From the NCBI GenBank assembly GCA_016871255.1, contig VFZH01000009.1:1-50493 (forward strand): 50,493 nt of DNA, given 5' to 3'. This DNA comes from Acidimicrobiia bacterium (GTDB lineage Bacteria > Acidobacteriota > Vicinamibacteria > Vicinamibacterales > UBA2999). This document shows, one piece after another, positions 4,139 through 11,233 of the stretch. The notes beneath the pieces were generated by a model, which made no database searches, was not told where the DNA came from, and was given only the letters and a program-made list of their open reading frames with translations. Within the stretch, counting starts at the first letter, position 1, and each line of letters begins with the position of its first letter. A program made the position numbers and the translations under genes.

Positions 4139-5305
4139 GTGAAGAGGATCCGCGTCGGCGTCGTGTTCGGTGGCCGCTCCGGAGAGCACGAAGTGTCCCT
4201 CGCCTCCGCCGCGGCGGTCCTCACCCACCTCGATCGCGAGCGGTACGAGCCCGTGCCGATCCGCATCGAGAAGAGCGGGCGCTGGCAGCTCGCCGATCGC
4301 GCCCCCGTCGCCATGTCGGCGGGCGAGGTCATCGAACAGGCACGCCTGCAGGCCGCCCGGCCCGTGCGGGCCGGCCGCGAAGCGCTGATCGCAGCCCGGC
4401 CTGGCGAGGACACGGTGCTGACCATCGAGCGCCGGCACGCCGAGGCAGGGCACCCGGAAGAAGGCAGTGCCGTGGTCACAGGCCTTGGCCTCGACGTGGT
4501 CTTTCCGGTTCTCCACGGTCCCTACGGAGAAGACGGCACGATTCAGGGGCTGCTTGAGCTGGCCAACGTCCCCTACGTCGGGGCCGGCGTGCTCGGCTCC
4601 GCCGTGGGCATGGACAAGGCGGTGATGAAGACGCTCTTCGCCGCCCACAAGCTGGCGATTCCGAAGCACCTGGTCGTGCTGAAGCACGAATGGGCCGCGC
4701 GCCCCGATGAGGTCCGCGCCCGGGTGGTGAAAGCGCTGCGGTTTCCCCTCTTCGTCAAGCCCGCCAATCTGGGCTCGAGCGTGGGCATCTCCAAGGTGAA
4801 GGACGAGGAGACGCTGGGCGCGGCCCTGGATCTGGCGGCCGGCTACGATCGCAAGCTGATCGTGGAAGCCGCCGTGCCGCGCGCCCGGGAGATCGAGTGC
4901 GCCGTGCTCGGCAACGACGAACCGGAAGCATCGGTCCCGGGCGAGGTGGTGCCGTCGCGCGAGTTCTACGACTACGAAGCCAAGTATCTCGACGACGGCT
5001 CACGGCTGATCATTCCGGCCGATCTGACCGAGGCACAAACCGCCGCCGTGAAGACCGCAGCCGTCACGGCGTTCCGCGCGGTGGACGCCGCCGGCATGGC
5101 CCGGGTCGACTTCCTGCTGGACGGCCGACGTGGCCGGCTCCTCGTGAACGAGGTCAACACCATTCCCGGGTTCACCACGGTCAGCATGTACCCGAAGCTG
5201 TGGGAGGCCAGCGGCGTCCCGTACCCGGAGCTGCTCGATCGGCTGATCGCGCTGGCGCTGGAGCGCCACGCCGCCAAGCAGCAGCTGCGTACGAGCGTGA
5301 TGTGA
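4139..5305 (+). CDS. ddl: D-alanine--D-alanine ligase
   Basis: Ddl joins two D-alanines using ATP to make the dipeptide for peptidoglycan precursors. The 388-aa protein is an ATP-grasp enzyme. It has the N-terminal GGRSGEHEVSLAS motif (residues 11-23), HGPYGEDGTIQGLLEL in the substrate region, FVKPANLGSSVGISKV in the ATP-binding lobe, and the metal-binding end ARVDFLLD...LLVNEVNTIPGFTTVSMYPKLWEASG. The GTG at 4139 is the only start that keeps the first beta strand (MKRIRVGVVFGG). A TATATT box lies close upstream. The stop overlaps the GTG of the following TPR gene by 3 nt. Confidence 0.97.
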   Translation: MKRIRVGVVFGGRSGEHEVSLASAAAVLTHLDRERYEPVPIRIEKSGRWQLADRAPVAMSAGEVIEQARLQAARPVRAGREALIAARPGEDTVLTIERRHAEAGHPEEGSAVVTGLGLDVVFPVLHGPYGEDGTIQGLLELANVPYVGAGVLGSAVGMDKAVMKTLFAAHKLAIPKHLVVLKHEWAARPDEVRARVVKALRFPLFVKPANLGSSVGISKVKDEETLGAALDLAAGYDRKLIVEAAVPRAREIECAVLGNDEPEASVPGEVVPSREFYDYEAKYLDDGSRLIIPADLTEAQTAAVKTAAVTAFRAVDAAGMARVDFLLDGRRGRLLVNEVNTIPGFTTVSMYPKLWEASGVPYPELLDRLIALALERHAAKQQLRTSVM

Positions 5306-6852: not shown

Positions 6853-6942
6853 CGCGCGCGCGGATCGCGTGGACTTGACACGACGCGCGTTCTTCTCATC
6901 ACGACGCGGTGCCAGTTTTTGACTTTTCCGCACTTTTTGTGC

Positions 6943-6971
6943 TTGACATCCGCAAGTCTCAACCCTAATCT
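6943..6971 (+). promoter_or_regulatory. Sigma70-type promoter for the K/A micropeptide gene
   Basis: A perfect -35 box TTGACA (6943-6948) is separated by exactly 17 nt from TAATCT (6966-6971), a moderate -10. The flanking DNA is unusually T-rich for this genome. Transcription would begin near 6978, leaving a leader of about 85 nt before the ATG at 7064. This is the best consensus -35 seen in the window. Confidence 0.7.
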
Positions 6972-6992
6972 ACATCTGGTATGAGGGTGGAT

Positions 6993-7042
6993 GGCTCAGC
7001 CCACCAGTTGTGATGGACCGTGCGGTCTATCAAGGCTGAGTC
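6993..7042 (+). promoter_or_regulatory. Nested-hairpin 5' leader RNA
   Basis: The leader of the first micropeptide gene can fold into two stacked 9-bp helices. GGCTCAGCC (6993-7001) pairs with GGCTGAGTC (7034-7042), with one G-U pair. Inside it TGATGGACC (7011-7019) pairs with GGTCTATCA (7024-7032), with one G-U pair and a GTGC loop. A single A separates the two 3' arms and 9 nt separate the 5' arms. The outer helix ends 9 nt before the ribosome binding site GAGGAG (7052-7057). It matches no riboswitch class I recognise. It could be a stabiliser, a protein-binding site or a translational control element. Confidence 0.6.
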
Positions 7043-7063
7043 ACAACAACCGAGGAGAACAGA

Positions 7064-7120
7064 ATGGCGAAGAAGGCTGCCAAGAAGAAGGCCGCGAAGA
7101 AGGCCGCGAAGAAGCGGTAG
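7064..7120 (+). CDS. Lysine/alanine-rich micropeptide 1 (18 aa)
   Basis: The frame encodes MAKKAAKKKAAKKAAKKR and then a TAG stop. A strong Shine-Dalgarno GAGGAG (7052-7057) stands 6 nt before the ATG. A consensus promoter lies upstream and an intrinsic terminator begins 19 nt after the stop, so this looks like a complete monocistronic gene and not chance coding. The composition (10 Lys, 6 Ala, 1 Arg) resembles the C-terminal tails of bacterial histone H1-like and AlgP-like DNA-binding proteins, which suggests nucleic-acid binding. That function is inference. A nearly identical peptide is encoded 189 nt downstream. Confidence 0.75.
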   Translation: MAKKAAKKKAAKKAAKKR

Positions 7121-7139
7121 TTCTTCGAAAGGGCTTGGA

Positions 7140-7166
7140 GGGGTGCCTGCGGGCACCCCTTTTTTT
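7140..7166 (+). terminator. Intrinsic terminator after micropeptide 1
   Basis: An 8-bp perfect GC-rich stem, GGGGTGCC (7140-7147) with GGCACCCC (7152-7159), closes a TGCG loop and is followed directly by seven T residues (7160-7166). It is the only textbook rho-independent terminator I see in this window. Confidence 0.92.
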
Positions 7167-7308
7167 GTACGGGGCTGCCGCGCGCCGCGACGGCGTGCGG
7201 CCTGCAGGCGCGAGTCGCTCGAAACCACAGGCCCCTGTGCCACGCGGCGCGAGGCCCTGAGGCGCACGGACGCGATCGCGTCATCCACCAACGAAAGGAG
7301 AGAGTCAG

Positions 7309-7362
7309 ATGGCCAAGAAAGCCGCGAAGGGCGCGAAGAAGAAGGCCGCCAAGAAGCGCTAG
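7309..7362 (+). CDS. Lysine/alanine-rich micropeptide 2 (17 aa)
   Basis: The frame encodes MAKKAAKGAKKKAAKKR followed by TAG. A ribosome binding site AAAGGAG (7294-7300) lies 8 nt before the ATG. The peptide is a clear paralogue of the one at 7064-7120, sharing MAKKAAK at the start and KKAAKKR at the end. No obvious promoter lies in the GC-rich 140 nt between the upstream terminator and this gene, so expression may depend on read-through. Two GC-rich hairpins follow the stop. A nucleic-acid-binding role is inferred from charge only. Confidence 0.7.
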   Translation: MAKKAAKGAKKKAAKKR

Positions 7363-7366
7363 ACGC

Positions 7367-7413
7367 GCCGCCCTGTTGGCGGCAGGGGGGCGGAGCGCAC
7401 GAGTTCCGCCCCC
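7367..7413. terminator. Two hairpins between convergent genes
   Basis: GCCGCC (7367-7372) pairs with GGCGGC (7378-7383), and GGGGGCGGA (7386-7394) pairs with TCCGCCCCC (7405-7413). Neither has a proper T-tract on either strand. They lie between micropeptide 2 and the convergent HEAT-repeat gene, so they may act as a weak bidirectional terminator or as 3'-end stabilisers. Confidence 0.4.
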
Positions 7414-7428
7414 TTCCCTGATTCGTCC

Positions 7429-9597
7429 CTACTGTCCCCCGCTCGCACCGCCCCGGGGAGGCCCACCCGACACGGTCATCCCGAGAATCCGATCACGCGG
7501 CTGGAGCCGATCCACCACGTCGAGTCCGCTCACCACCTGCCCGAACACGGTGTAGCGGCCATCGAGCTGCGGCTGCGGTGAGCGGGCGATGAAGAACTGG
7601 CTGCCGCCCGCGTCCGGCCACGCGGTCGCCATGCCGACGGTTCCACGCCCGACCGGGTGCTCGTTGATCTCGTCGCGAATCGTGTAGCCGGGGCCTCCTT
7701 CCCCGTCTCCCCGGGGATCGCCCGCCAGCACGCCGAAGTCCGGCACCACCTGATGTACGGGCACGCCGGTGAAGAAGCCGCGCTCGGCGAGGTCCAGGAA
7801 ACTCGCCACGGTCTGCGGCGCATCGAGCACGGCCATCGCGAGTTCGATCGTGCCCCGATCGGTGTCGATCGACACCCGCGGGGAGTACGGCGGGGCCATC
7901 AGCCACGTCCACTCATCGTCGGGGATCACGCGCCCGGGCGGGGCCGGCCGGATCGCCCCTGGCACCGCGGGATCCGCAGGCCGCGCGAGGCCCGCCGCCT
8001 CCTCGCCGCCCGGGGCCGCGAGGAGCGCAGCCGCCCGCACGCGGACGGCCCAGTCGCGATCGCGCAGCGCGTCCTGCAGCACGGCGTGCGCCGCCGACGG
8101 GTCGAGACGAGCCACGGCCTCGATCGCCGCAACGCGCGTCATGGGGCCGGGATCGCGCGACCACTCGCGATACGCCTCGGTCAACGGTCCCACCGCAGAC
8201 CCCGCGCGCAAGGTGCCGAGGCCGGCGGCCGCGGTCGCCCGGACCACCATGTCGTCCGCGCGGAGCCGGTTCAGCAGGACCGCTTCCATGCCGGGCGTGC
8301 CGAGCGCGACGAGCGACCGCAGCACGTAGGGCACGACGCGCTGGTCCTGATCGTTCAGCATCTCGGACAGCCTGGGCCGCGCCTGCCGCTCCGGCAGGTG
8401 TCCGAGGGCGGCAGCCTGAGCGGCACGCACGGTCCAGTCCGGATCGGGATCCAGGCCGGAGAGCGCAGACAGGAGCGTCTCCGGCGACACCTGACCGAGC
8501 GCAGCGAACGACGCGCTGCGCAGCGCGGGCGCGCGATCGGAGAGCAGATCGAGCAGCACGTCGATCGCCTCGGGCGCGCCGACCGCGCCCACACCCTCGA
8601 GCGCCGCGACCCTGAGCCACATCGGGCCCTCCGGATCGGCCGAGAGCGCGAGCAGCGGCGCCCCCGCCCGCGGATCCGCGATCGCCGTCAGCGCCCGCAC
8701 GCTCTCGGCCACCACTGCGGGATCGGTGCCCTCCGCACGGACGATGCGGAGCAGATCGTCGACGGCACCACCCGCCCGGAGAGCGCCCAGGCCGCGCGCC
8801 GCGAAGCCCGCCGTGTACCGCCCGGGTGTCGAGAGCAGCGTGCGCAGCGTCGGCTCGGTACGCGGGTCGCCCACCGCCTGCAGGGCGAACGCCACTGGCC
8901 ACCATCGCGACACCGGCAGGCCGTCGCGGCCGAGCACGACGGAGGCGAGTGCTTCGTAGTCGCCGAGACGCGCGAGCGCGTACACGCCGAGCCGGATGGC
9001 TTCAGTGGGGTCGCCGAGCGGGTACGAGAGGTCATCGGGCTGGACCGATGTGAGCGCACCGGCCTGGACGTGGGCGAAGACCATCGCCGCGATTGCGGCC
9101 GCGTCTTCTGCGGCTCCGATCCGGCCGAGCGCCTCGGCCGCGCGCCCCTGCACGAGGGCACTCGGGTCCGCCAGCGCGTCGATCAGCGCAGGCCTGGACG
9201 CCGGGTCACCGATCAACCCGAGCGCGAACGCCGCCATCTGCCGCACCTCAGGGTCGCTGTCGGCCAGCAACCCACTGACCGGGTTCGCGCCCTCGGGCAG
9301 GCCGACGCGCCCGATGGCGAGCGCCGCGCGACGCCGGACGCGCGCCTCGGGATCGCGCAGCAACGCGATCAGATCCGAGGGGGGCGCCGGGGCGATGACC
9401 GCGGGGCGGTTCGCGGTCGCCGGCACGAGCACGACCGGCGGCGCCTGATCGGGATCGCGCAGGACGCGCTGATCCTCGAGCCGCATCATCCAGCCGATCT
9501 TGTGTTCCCAGGTGATGACCGGCGGCGAGGCTGCTGGTGGCGGCGCTGTTGCACACGCGGTGCACAGAGCGGCGGCAAGGAGAACCGCGTAACGCAC
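7429..9597 (-). CDS. Exported HEAT-repeat protein with C-terminal cyclophilin domain
   Basis: The 722-aa protein has a short N-terminal export signal (MRYAVLLAAALCTACATA), possibly a lipoprotein signal although the lipobox is imperfect. About 500 residues of HEAT repeats follow, with recurring motifs such as DPEARVRRRAALAIGRVG and DSDPEVRQMAAFALGLIG. The last 150 residues form a cyclophilin-type peptidyl-prolyl isomerase domain (RGTIELAM, GFFTGVPVHQVVPDFGVLAGDP, GSQFFIARSPQPQLDGRYTVFGQVVSGLDVVDRL). The catalytic Arg of cyclophilins, normally in F-H-R-h-h-P, is Gln here (VHQVVPDF), so isomerase activity is doubtful. The GTG at 9597 is chosen because the upstream frame is antisense to the kinase gene and this start exposes the signal. 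Confidence 0.85.
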   Translation of the reverse strand: MRYAVLLAAALCTACATAPPPAASPPVITWEHKIGWMMRLEDQRVLRDPDQAPPVVLVPATANRPAVIAPAPPSDLIALLRDPEARVRRRAALAIGRVGLPEGANPVSGLLADSDPEVRQMAAFALGLIGDPASRPALIDALADPSALVQGRAAEALGRIGAAEDAAAIAAMVFAHVQAGALTSVQPDDLSYPLGDPTEAIRLGVYALARLGDYEALASVVLGRDGLPVSRWWPVAFALQAVGDPRTEPTLRTLLSTPGRYTAGFAARGLGALRAGGAVDDLLRIVRAEGTDPAVVAESVRALTAIADPRAGAPLLALSADPEGPMWLRVAALEGVGAVGAPEAIDVLLDLLSDRAPALRSASFAALGQVSPETLLSALSGLDPDPDWTVRAAQAAALGHLPERQARPRLSEMLNDQDQRVVPYVLRSLVALGTPGMEAVLLNRLRADDMVVRATAAAGLGTLRAGSAVGPLTEAYREWSRDPGPMTRVAAIEAVARLDPSAAHAVLQDALRDRDWAVRVRAAALLAAPGGEEAAGLARPADPAVPGAIRPAPPGRVIPDDEWTWLMAPPYSPRVSIDTDRGTIELAMAVLDAPQTVASFLDLAERGFFTGVPVHQVVPDFGVLAGDPRGDGEGGPGYTIRDEINEHPVGRGTVGMATAWPDAGGSQFFIARSPQPQLDGRYTVFGQVVSGLDVVDRLQPRDRILGMTVSGGPPRGGASGGQ

Positions 9598-9607
9598 GGC
9601 GTGGGGG

Positions 9608-9613
9608 ATGATA
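9608..9613 (-). promoter_or_regulatory. Candidate -10 box for the HEAT/cyclophilin gene (TATCAT)
   Basis: On the minus strand TATCAT ends 10 nt before the GTG at 9597. The divergent kinase ATG is at 9616, so only 18 bp separate the two start codons and the promoters must overlap coding sequence. The spacing would give a nearly leaderless transcript. Confidence 0.4.
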
Positions 9614-9615
9614 GC

Positions 9616-10296
9616 ATGCGGGCTGCCGACACCCTGGCGCGCCTCCGCCGACAGATGGACTTCCGCTACATCGCGATCGAGGGACCGATTGCCGTCGGCA
9701 AGACCGCCGTCGCCCGGCGGCTGGCCCACCGTCTCGAGGCGGCGACCGTGCTGGACGGGACCGACAATCCGTTCCTCAACGATTTCTACGCGGGCCGCCC
9801 CGGTGCCGCACTCCAGGCACAGCTCTTCTACCTGCTCGGGCGGCACCGCCAGCACGTCGCGGAGCGGCAGGCCAACCTGTTCGCGCAGATCTCCATCTGC
9901 GACTGCCTGTTCGATCGCGATCGGATCTACGCGTACCTCAACCTGGACGACAACGAGCTCTTCATCTACCAGCGGCTCTTCGACCTGCTGGCCCGGGACG
10001 TCGTGCCCCCCGATCTCGTGGTGTACCTGCAGGCACCGTCGGAGGTGCTGCTCCAGCGACTGCGCGATCGCGCTCCCGCCGCCGACGACGAGGGTGCGCT
10101 GGAGCCGGACGCCGCGTACGTGAAGGAAGTCAACGAGGCCTACCAGCACTTCTTCTTCCACTACACCGCCACGCCCCTGCTGGTGGTGGAAACATCGCAC
10201 CTGGACCTGGGCGCCAGCGACGCCGCGATCGGCGACCTCGTACGCCAGATCGGCAGCATGAGCGGGGGTACGCGCTACTACGTGCCGCGCCTCTGA
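9616..10296 (+). CDS. Deoxynucleoside kinase family protein
   Basis: This 226-aa protein belongs to the dCK/dGK-like deoxynucleoside kinases, which phosphorylate salvaged deoxynucleosides with a nucleoside triphosphate. It has a P-loop GPIAVGKT (residues 23-30), the ICDCLFDRDRIYAYLNLDDNEL stretch corresponding to the substrate-site and D/E-R-S region, PDLVVYLQAPSEVLLQRLRDR (the LID-region arginines), and FHYTATPLLVVETSHLD near the end. An alternative start at 9655 (MDFRYIAIEGP) removes 13 residues and is also reasonable, since the fold begins there. Substrate preference cannot be read from the sequence. It lies 43 nt before accD. Confidence 0.9.
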   Translation: MRAADTLARLRRQMDFRYIAIEGPIAVGKTAVARRLAHRLEAATVLDGTDNPFLNDFYAGRPGAALQAQLFYLLGRHRQHVAERQANLFAQISICDCLFDRDRIYAYLNLDDNELFIYQRLFDLLARDVVPPDLVVYLQAPSEVLLQRLRDRAPAADDEGALEPDAAYVKEVNEAYQHFFFHYTATPLLVVETSHLDLGASDAAIGDLVRQIGSMSGGTRYYVPRL

Positions 10297-10314
10297 GCGT
10301 CCGGGGCCGGACGC
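10297..10314 (+). terminator. Hairpin after the deoxynucleoside kinase gene
   Basis: GCGTCCG (10297-10303) pairs perfectly with CGGACGC (10308-10314) around a GGGC loop, starting right after the kinase stop codon. No T-tract follows, so termination is uncertain. Confidence 0.35.
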
Positions 10315-10324
10315 GCCCGGCCCG

Positions 10325-10330
10325 TATAAT
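10325..10330 (+). promoter_or_regulatory. Consensus -10 box for accD (TATAAT)
   Basis: A perfect TATAAT ends exactly 9 nt before the accD ATG at 10340. The intervening CGAGCCTTC has no Shine-Dalgarno sequence. A start site at the usual distance would make the message leaderless or nearly so. Confidence 0.65.
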
Positions 10331-10339
10331 CGAGCCTTC

Positions 10340-11233
10340 ATGGCGTGGTTCAAGAAGACGCGGCAGCCCATCAAGGCCGACCGCGCGAGCCGGATGCCCG
10401 AAGGGCTCTGGGTGAAGTGCCCCGGCTGCTCGCGCGTGCTCTACAAGAAGGACCTCGGAGGGACGCTCAACGTCTGTCCCCGGTGCGCCCACCACTTCCG
10501 CATTCCGGCCACGGAACGGCTGGGCACGCTGCTCGATCACGGACGCTGGACGGAGCACTTCGCCGGACTGGCCTCCACCGACCCGCTGCAATTCGTCGAC
10601 ACGAAGCCCTACCGGGACCGGCTGGCCGCAGCCCGTCAGGCGACCGGCCTCGAGGACGCGGTGATCATCGCCACGGGTCGCCTGGACGGAACGGACGTCG
10701 TGATGGCCGCCATGGAGTACGGCTTCATCGGCGGCAGCATGGGCATCGTCGTCGGCGAGAAGCTCACACGCGCGGCCGAGCTCGCACTCGAGCAGCGCCA
10801 CCCGTTCATCGTCGTGTCCTGCTCCGGTGGCGCCCGCATGATGGAAGGCGCGCTCTCGCTGATGCAGATGGCCAAGGTCTCGGCGGCCCTGGCCCGCCTC
10901 GATCGCGCGGGTGTCCCGTTCATCTCGATCCTGACCGACCCCACCACGGGCGGCGTGACCGCGAGCTTCGCCATGCTGGGCGATCTCAACATCGCGGAGC
11001 CACGAGCGCTGATCGGCTTCGCCGGTCCACGCGTGATCGAGCAGACGATCCGCCAGAAACTGCCCGAGGGCTTCCAGCGGAGCGAGTTCCTGCTCGAGCG
11101 CGGCATGCTCGACCTGATCGTCGATCGCCGCGAGATGAAGTCCACGCTGGCGCTGGCGCTGCGGTTCATGGGCGCCGGAGCCGCGCGGCGTCCGGCCGGG
11201 AACCCCGCCGCCCCGCCGCCGCTCCCGCACTGA
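10340..11233 (+). CDS. accD: Acetyl-CoA carboxylase carboxyltransferase subunit beta
   Basis: AccD works with AccA to move the carboxyl group from biotin to acetyl-CoA, giving malonyl-CoA for fatty-acid synthesis. The 297-aa protein starts with the AccD zinc ribbon (Cys 27, 30, 46 and 49 in CPGC and CPRC). The crotonase-like carboxyltransferase core follows: YGFIGGSMGIVVGEKLTRA, SCSGGARMMEGALSLMQMAK, TDPTTGGVTASFAMLGDLNIAEP and IGFAGPRVIEQT. The Pro/Ala-rich tail is unremarkable. folC starts 6 nt after the stop, the same accD-folC order seen in Proteobacteria. Confidence 0.98.
   Translation: MAWFKKTRQPIKADRASRMPEGLWVKCPGCSRVLYKKDLGGTLNVCPRCAHHFRIPATERLGTLLDHGRWTEHFAGLASTDPLQFVDTKPYRDRLAAARQATGLEDAVIIATGRLDGTDVVMAAMEYGFIGGSMGIVVGEKLTRAAELALEQRHPFIVVSCSGGARMMEGALSLMQMAKVSAALARLDRAGVPFISILTDPTTGGVTASFAMLGDLNIAEPRALIGFAGPRVIEQTIRQKLPEGFQRSEFLLERGMLDLIVDRREMKSTLALALRFMGAGAARRPAGNPAAPPPLPH

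Follow-up and report, generated by a model that had tools for sequence, protein, structure and literature searches.

Two very short genes, pep1 and pep2, lie in tandem in the window (the whole 50,493-bp stretch of DNA that was analysed, from a member of the Vicinamibacterales, Acidobacteriota). In our assessment they probably encode free-standing polycationic micropeptides resembling histone H1 tails, which would be made from one transcription unit and would bind nucleic acid, either nucleoid DNA, RNA or both. pep1 (bp 7064 to 7120, forward strand, with ATG at 7064 and TAG at 7120) encodes the 18 aa peptide MAKKAAKKKAAKKAAKKR, and pep2 (bp 7309 to 7362, forward strand, with ATG at 7309 and TAG at 7362) encodes the 17 aa peptide MAKKAAKGAKKKAAKKR. 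Reading both sequences directly confirmed a preliminary description of this DNA, according to which the two frames encode nearly identical K/A peptides and are each preceded by a Shine-Dalgarno (SD) sequence, GAGGAG at bp 7052 to 7057 (+) for pep1 and GAAAGGAG at bp 7293 to 7300 (+) for pep2, the latter being GAAAGGGGGGAT in relatives. The unit would be ordered promoter, leader A, pep1, terminator, leader B and pep2, giving two copies of a probably disordered micropeptide that starts with Met-Ala-Lys-Lys, carries KK pairs spaced by 1-3 small residues and ends in Lys-Lys-Arg. The peptides may act as detached tails of the H1, Hc2 or AlgP type that neutralise the phosphate backbone of nucleic acid, and this neutralisation would compact or condense nucleoid DNA and/or RNA.

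Judged from gene order, the position of the locus is fixed, between Ddl (or Ddl and a TPR protein) and a convergent cyclophilin/HEAT gene. In the window, Ddl is located at bp 4139 to 5305 (+), the TPR protein that follows it ends at bp 6852 (+), and the HEAT-repeat/cyclophilin (PPI) ORF is listed at bp 7429 to 10374 on the complementary strand, its true start probably being internal to the listed ORF. The convergent HEAT/cyclophilin gene was present in 98 of 108 loci, and where the locus extended far enough Ddl was found in 76, TPR in 72, Tgt in 57 and AccD in 36 of the 108. Of 59 genomes searched with a 231-bp DNA query, 53 gave matches. With at most one mismatch allowed, 106 of the 162 order genomes each had exactly one copy of the promoter/leader signature TAATCTACATCTNGTATGAG, which begins at bp 6966 (+); it was found in 0 of 31 genomes from the other orders of this class, and the control gave 0 matches. 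A search for the exact promoter outside the order returned three matches with 2 mismatches, none with a K/A ORF, and these were attributed to chance. Downstream of all 80 exact leader matches sampled from a public genome collection there was a MAK[KR]...K(K/R) micro-ORF, and at least 44 of the 80 had two, a lower bound since some contigs stop before the second ORF. The leader-independent pattern MAKK..KKR-stop was found in 21 of 297 genomes of the phylum, every one in the Vicinamibacterales and at this locus. Among named genomes with the leader, Acidobacteria MAGs made up the overwhelming majority, several labelled Vicinamibacterales or Vicinamibacteria, and the few with odd labels are probably misassigned bins.

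Conservation across the order covered the leader and the two ORFs with their starts and stops, and by these comparisons the conservation of pep1 and pep2 is more than chance. K/A peptide genes that stand alone and have a promoter, a leader and a terminator had been proposed, and they are genuine and conserved order-wide; loss of start, stop and K/A content in relatives, named beforehand as grounds for doubt, was checked for and did not occur. In families f6, f10 and f11 the exact signature was missing or partial, and the ORF persisted at the syntenic site with a G-rich SD. In part of family f8 (L167, L170 and L174) the micro-gene was gone and the Ddl and PPI stop codons were adjacent, a natural deletion which indicates that it is not essential everywhere; this absence from one sublineage would count against the H1-tail reading.

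Peptide length ranged from 14 to 65 aa across relatives, and composition was determined for 61 distinct peptides of 14 to 60 aa, plus the 65-aa peptide of L028. All 61 started with MAK[KR] and 56 ended with KKR; Lys made up 49% on average, the rest being mostly A, G, T and V, and no Asp, Glu, aromatic residue or Cys was found among them. The 61 peptides had the composition of HC2-type proteins, being K/A-rich with positive charges spread along their length. Substitutions in pep1 and pep2 were concentrated at third codon positions, with pN/pS values of 0.33 for pep1 and 0.29 for pep2 (Nei-Gojobori, all same-length pairs). By this substitution pattern the peptides are under purifying selection at the protein level, and comparative evidence strongly supports translation of the micro-ORFs. 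Gly, Thr, Val or Ser could take the place of Ala, for example in MAKKGGKKKGGKKR, so the constant feature is the KK pairs with small spacers and not an alanine helix. Such Gly-for-Ala versions also ruled out an amphipathic antimicrobial helix as a general model. A search of solved structures with a 54-aa relative gave only one weak match, to a designed helical repeat.

The likeness to H1-like tails suggested at the outset was borne out by composition, by a weak HC2 score and by the tail of a SWIB protein in the same genome. The 65-aa relative scored 19.1 bits against HC2 (Pfam PF07382, cut-off 40, E 0.0015) and 19.4 against NF038052 (NCBIfam, cut-off 135), and the 26- and 35-aa relatives gave no match to either; pep1 and pep2 themselves fall under the 20-aa limit of the family search, and the HC2 scores refer to longer relatives only. 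Since the curated HC2 cut-off was missed, the peptides are not filed as HC2 members, though they are H1/Hc2-tail-like. The PF07382 proteins Hc2 (Chlamydia) and BpH1 (Bordetella) similarly have K/A-rich repeats with small T/V/P residues and a length that varies by repeat number, but known members have about 150-240 aa, far above the range given here, whereas the micropeptides occur in tandem pairs, with conserved leaders dedicated to them. Hc2 binds DNA and RNA (PMC2848022). The C-terminal KPAA tails of AlgP and PhaF (Pseudomonas) are also disordered K/A tails, and KPAA-repeat peptides bind DNA in vitro (PMC9239181), but these tails belong to larger proteins that have a further domain, whereas the micropeptide is the entire protein and is mostly without proline. 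Nearly the same kind of sequence was found in the K/A tail MAKKKAAKKKAAKKTVAKKAAKK of a SWIB/MDM2-domain protein of the same genome (L002 1198-1719, complementary strand, contig C185, listed ORF 173 aa), where it is N-terminal to the domain; this likely chromatin-type protein differs in having a folded SWIB domain in the ORF and in lying at another locus. ScvA of Coxiella burnetii has about 30 aa and probably a composition different from that of the K/A micropeptides, to which we know of no relationship. It resembles them as a very small free-standing basic DNA-binding protein, and the small-cell form of Coxiella is enriched in small basic proteins that bind DNA (PMC4766238). Rfam, Pfam and NCBIfam gave no match above cut-off, and neither the peptides nor an Acidobacteriota equivalent were found in the literature searched, which mostly lay outside subscription papers; no described RNA or protein family covers the pep1/pep2 locus.

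The most likely product of the locus is an H1-tail-like polycation, a putative binder of nucleic acid or another polyanion; several partners are possible because polycations bind any polyanion, such as polyphosphate or rRNA. It is conceivable, though in our view doubtful, that the peptides are not nucleoid proteins and bind one of these others, as ribosome-associated microproteins on rRNA or in polyphosphate condensates. Ribosomes commonly carry very short basic proteins, and one family keeps the exact sequence MAKKAKGGKKKAGKKR in 18 loci, nearly identical in DNA too, which suggests a specific site; this is stricter than a nonspecific tail should need, and so would count against the H1-tail reading. 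AlgP, with its H1-like KPAA tail, acts at granules of polyphosphate, a polymer with which polycationic peptides form condensates (PMC9239181). The spread in peptide length and the free exchange of A, G, T and V between lineages are, however, unlike a ribosome-seated protein, and we continue to favour nucleic acid binding by H1-like tails.

pep1 is preceded by a sigma-70 promoter, with the -35 hexamer TTGACA at bp 6943 to 6948 (+) in the conserved context TTTGTGCTTGACA, and a -10 region at bp 6964 to 6971 (+) that reads CCTAATCT in the window and CATAATCT in most relatives. The promoter had been described as TTGACA-17-TAATCT; the TTGACA hexamer stood, but the -10 box was refined to the overlapping CCTAAT, which is slightly degraded and has a spacer of 15 nt, relatives having CATAAT with a spacer of 16 nt (11/12 matches). 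A second TTGAC hexamer about 25 bp 5' of the -35 (window bp 6914 to 6948, TTTTTGAC ... TTTTTGTGCTTGACA) was kept in most relatives and is perhaps a regulator site. The perfect intrinsic terminator claimed after pep1 was found at bp 7137 to 7166 (+), with an 11-bp stem (bp 7137 to 7162) followed by T7, and a terminator was present 3' of pep1 in 65 of 85 loci. Folding of the 191-nt pep1 transcript far exceeded that of shuffled sequences (z -5.3), with the terminator contributing much of the difference.

Full independence of pep2, as first supposed, was not upheld, since pep2 is without such a promoter and in the pep1-pep2 gap of 67 loci nothing promoter-like scored above shuffled sequence (mean best score 7.47 versus 7.39). 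With no promoter detectable, read-through is probably how pep2 is expressed. About 20 of 80 sampled loci had a fused A+B leader followed by a single ORF, which argues that elements A and B belong to one transcript, and these leaders together with the promoterless gap suggest a locus read as one unit, with read-through at the internal terminator. pep1 would then be made from a short terminated transcript and pep2 from read-through transcripts. In the window the pep2 leader region (bp 7167 to 7308, +) contains a decayed copy of element B (bp 7238-7249, +), with TGCCACGCGGCG for the consensus TGCCAGGCGGCA, and the GC-rich hairpin after pep2 (bp 7385 to 7413, +) is without a proper T-run and forms a weak terminator, a strong one being found in relatives. 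With decay in element B, in its SD and in the final terminator, pep2 may be weakly expressed here. In the L022/L069 lineage the transcription unit points the opposite way with respect to the conserved neighbours, which suggests that it is self-contained.

The location of pep2 behind the terminator of pep1, with no detectable promoter of its own, would also suit a leader peptide, pep1, that attenuates pep2 at the intervening terminator. We consider this very improbable, as many lineages have a single ORF (those with the fused leader, and others with pep1 alone) and pep1 and pep2 were identical in sequence in 24 of 67 pairs, so that both look like products. The regulated downstream gene of an attenuator, on the same transcript, was not found at this locus, where pep2 alone follows and is succeeded by a convergent gene on the complementary strand.

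Leader element A, the conserved 5' UTR of pep1 at bp 6978 to 7063 (+), reads GGTATGAGGGTGG..CTCAG..CCACC..GTTGTGA..GGCTGAGTCACAAC, and alone gave a folding z of -2.3 against shuffles. It can form either a hairpin (alignment columns 8-12 and 23-27) together with a GUUGUGAC/GUCACAAC stem, or a long-range GGCUCAGCC/GGCUGAGUC pairing, and in the folding model both are possible together as a pseudoknot. In the leader A alignment 93% of cells were paired, versus 25-54% when it was slid, with no excess over within-family shuffles; a switch in leader A is proposed only as a hypothesis, because this shuffle test was not significant. Element B precedes pep2 in many two-gene relatives and consists of a TGCC-AGGC-GGCA hairpin (TGCCAGGCGGCA) and a G-rich SD, GAAGGGGGGGAU, the latter found in 60 of 68 unique leaders. 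The hairpin core was unchanged in 45 of the 68, which is the unbiased count, since the rows of alignment A2 were picked for carrying the CCAGGCGGC core and its invariance there is a selection effect. The flanks of the hairpin vary in step, for example GUG/CAC, AGCC/GGCU and GGGUA/UACC, and both hairpin A and the element B flanks showed compatible and some compensatory changes. RNAalifold recovered only short helices from mixed alignments, and an Rfam covariance-model scan of the locus in the window and relatives gave no gathering-level match; at a permissive level, the window and five relatives gave only weak matches far below threshold. The structured leader and a G-rich SD that is possibly partly occluded in relatives suggest that translation is regulated, and one might guess at control by the peptide itself or by a trans factor.

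With the promoter and leader start the most conserved part, the element B core so often identical and the transcript short and terminated, the main product could be RNA, either a structured regulatory RNA or a dual-function sRNA in which the ORF is secondary. This is improbable given the purifying selection on the protein, the in-frame length changes and the conserved start, stop and SD; moreover, some lineages have lost element B yet retain the ORF, the ORF survives where the promoter has diverged, and the leader A structure failed its shuffle control. A peptide product is therefore preferred.

Similar genes were also found outside the order. MPAKKK../MAAKKK.. ORFs, in some cases two of them, are flanked by neighbours of the same kinds in sister orders (f16 and f17) and have CGAAAGGGGG(G) as their SD motif. 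In G286, from another part of the phylum, a similar gene near a PPI gene carries GAAAGGGGGGATAA. As a tentative extension, pep1, pep2 and these genes may form an ancient, Acidobacteriota-wide class of minimal histone-tail genes in which 14-20 residues are the whole protein. Their synthesis would be under the control of two structured 5' RNA elements of a new kind that have the conserved TGCCAGGCGGCA hairpin and G-rich SD, and that perhaps respond to the peptide itself or to a polycation/nucleic-acid signal. Gene finders usually overlook such genes, and routine annotation with length cut-offs misses them. The locus would be an example of a histone-tail-like polycation encoded by a stand-alone gene of 14-20 codons and retained for as long as a bacterial order has existed. 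Its tandem pairs, single copies, long versions and natural deletion would offer a natural minimal system for the function of a solo H1-like tail in the Acidobacteriota, a major group of soil bacteria in which the nucleoid has received little study.

In families f67 and f74, MATKKKAAKK.. micro-ORFs are located 3' of a pilus-ATPase-like gene; their TTGACA..TATATT promoter is strong, and in their leader CCCCGG can pair with the SD region. These may have separate origins. In other Acidobacteriota families, micro-ORFs of the MATKKKAAKK type were observed after a PilT-like gene in L235 (1518), L236 (1522) and L237 (1520, all oriented), with a strong promoter, CCCCGG/CCGGGG leader pairing near the SD and a terminator. 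The tandem MAKKSTKKVVKLNVERLEKRIAPT array in G237 was rejected as a different family; it is an unrelated tandem small-protein array at L203 ~1371-1600 on the complementary strand, made up of head-to-tail copies of the 31-aa ORF MAKKSTKKVVKLNVERLEKRIAPTRAAIAMG.
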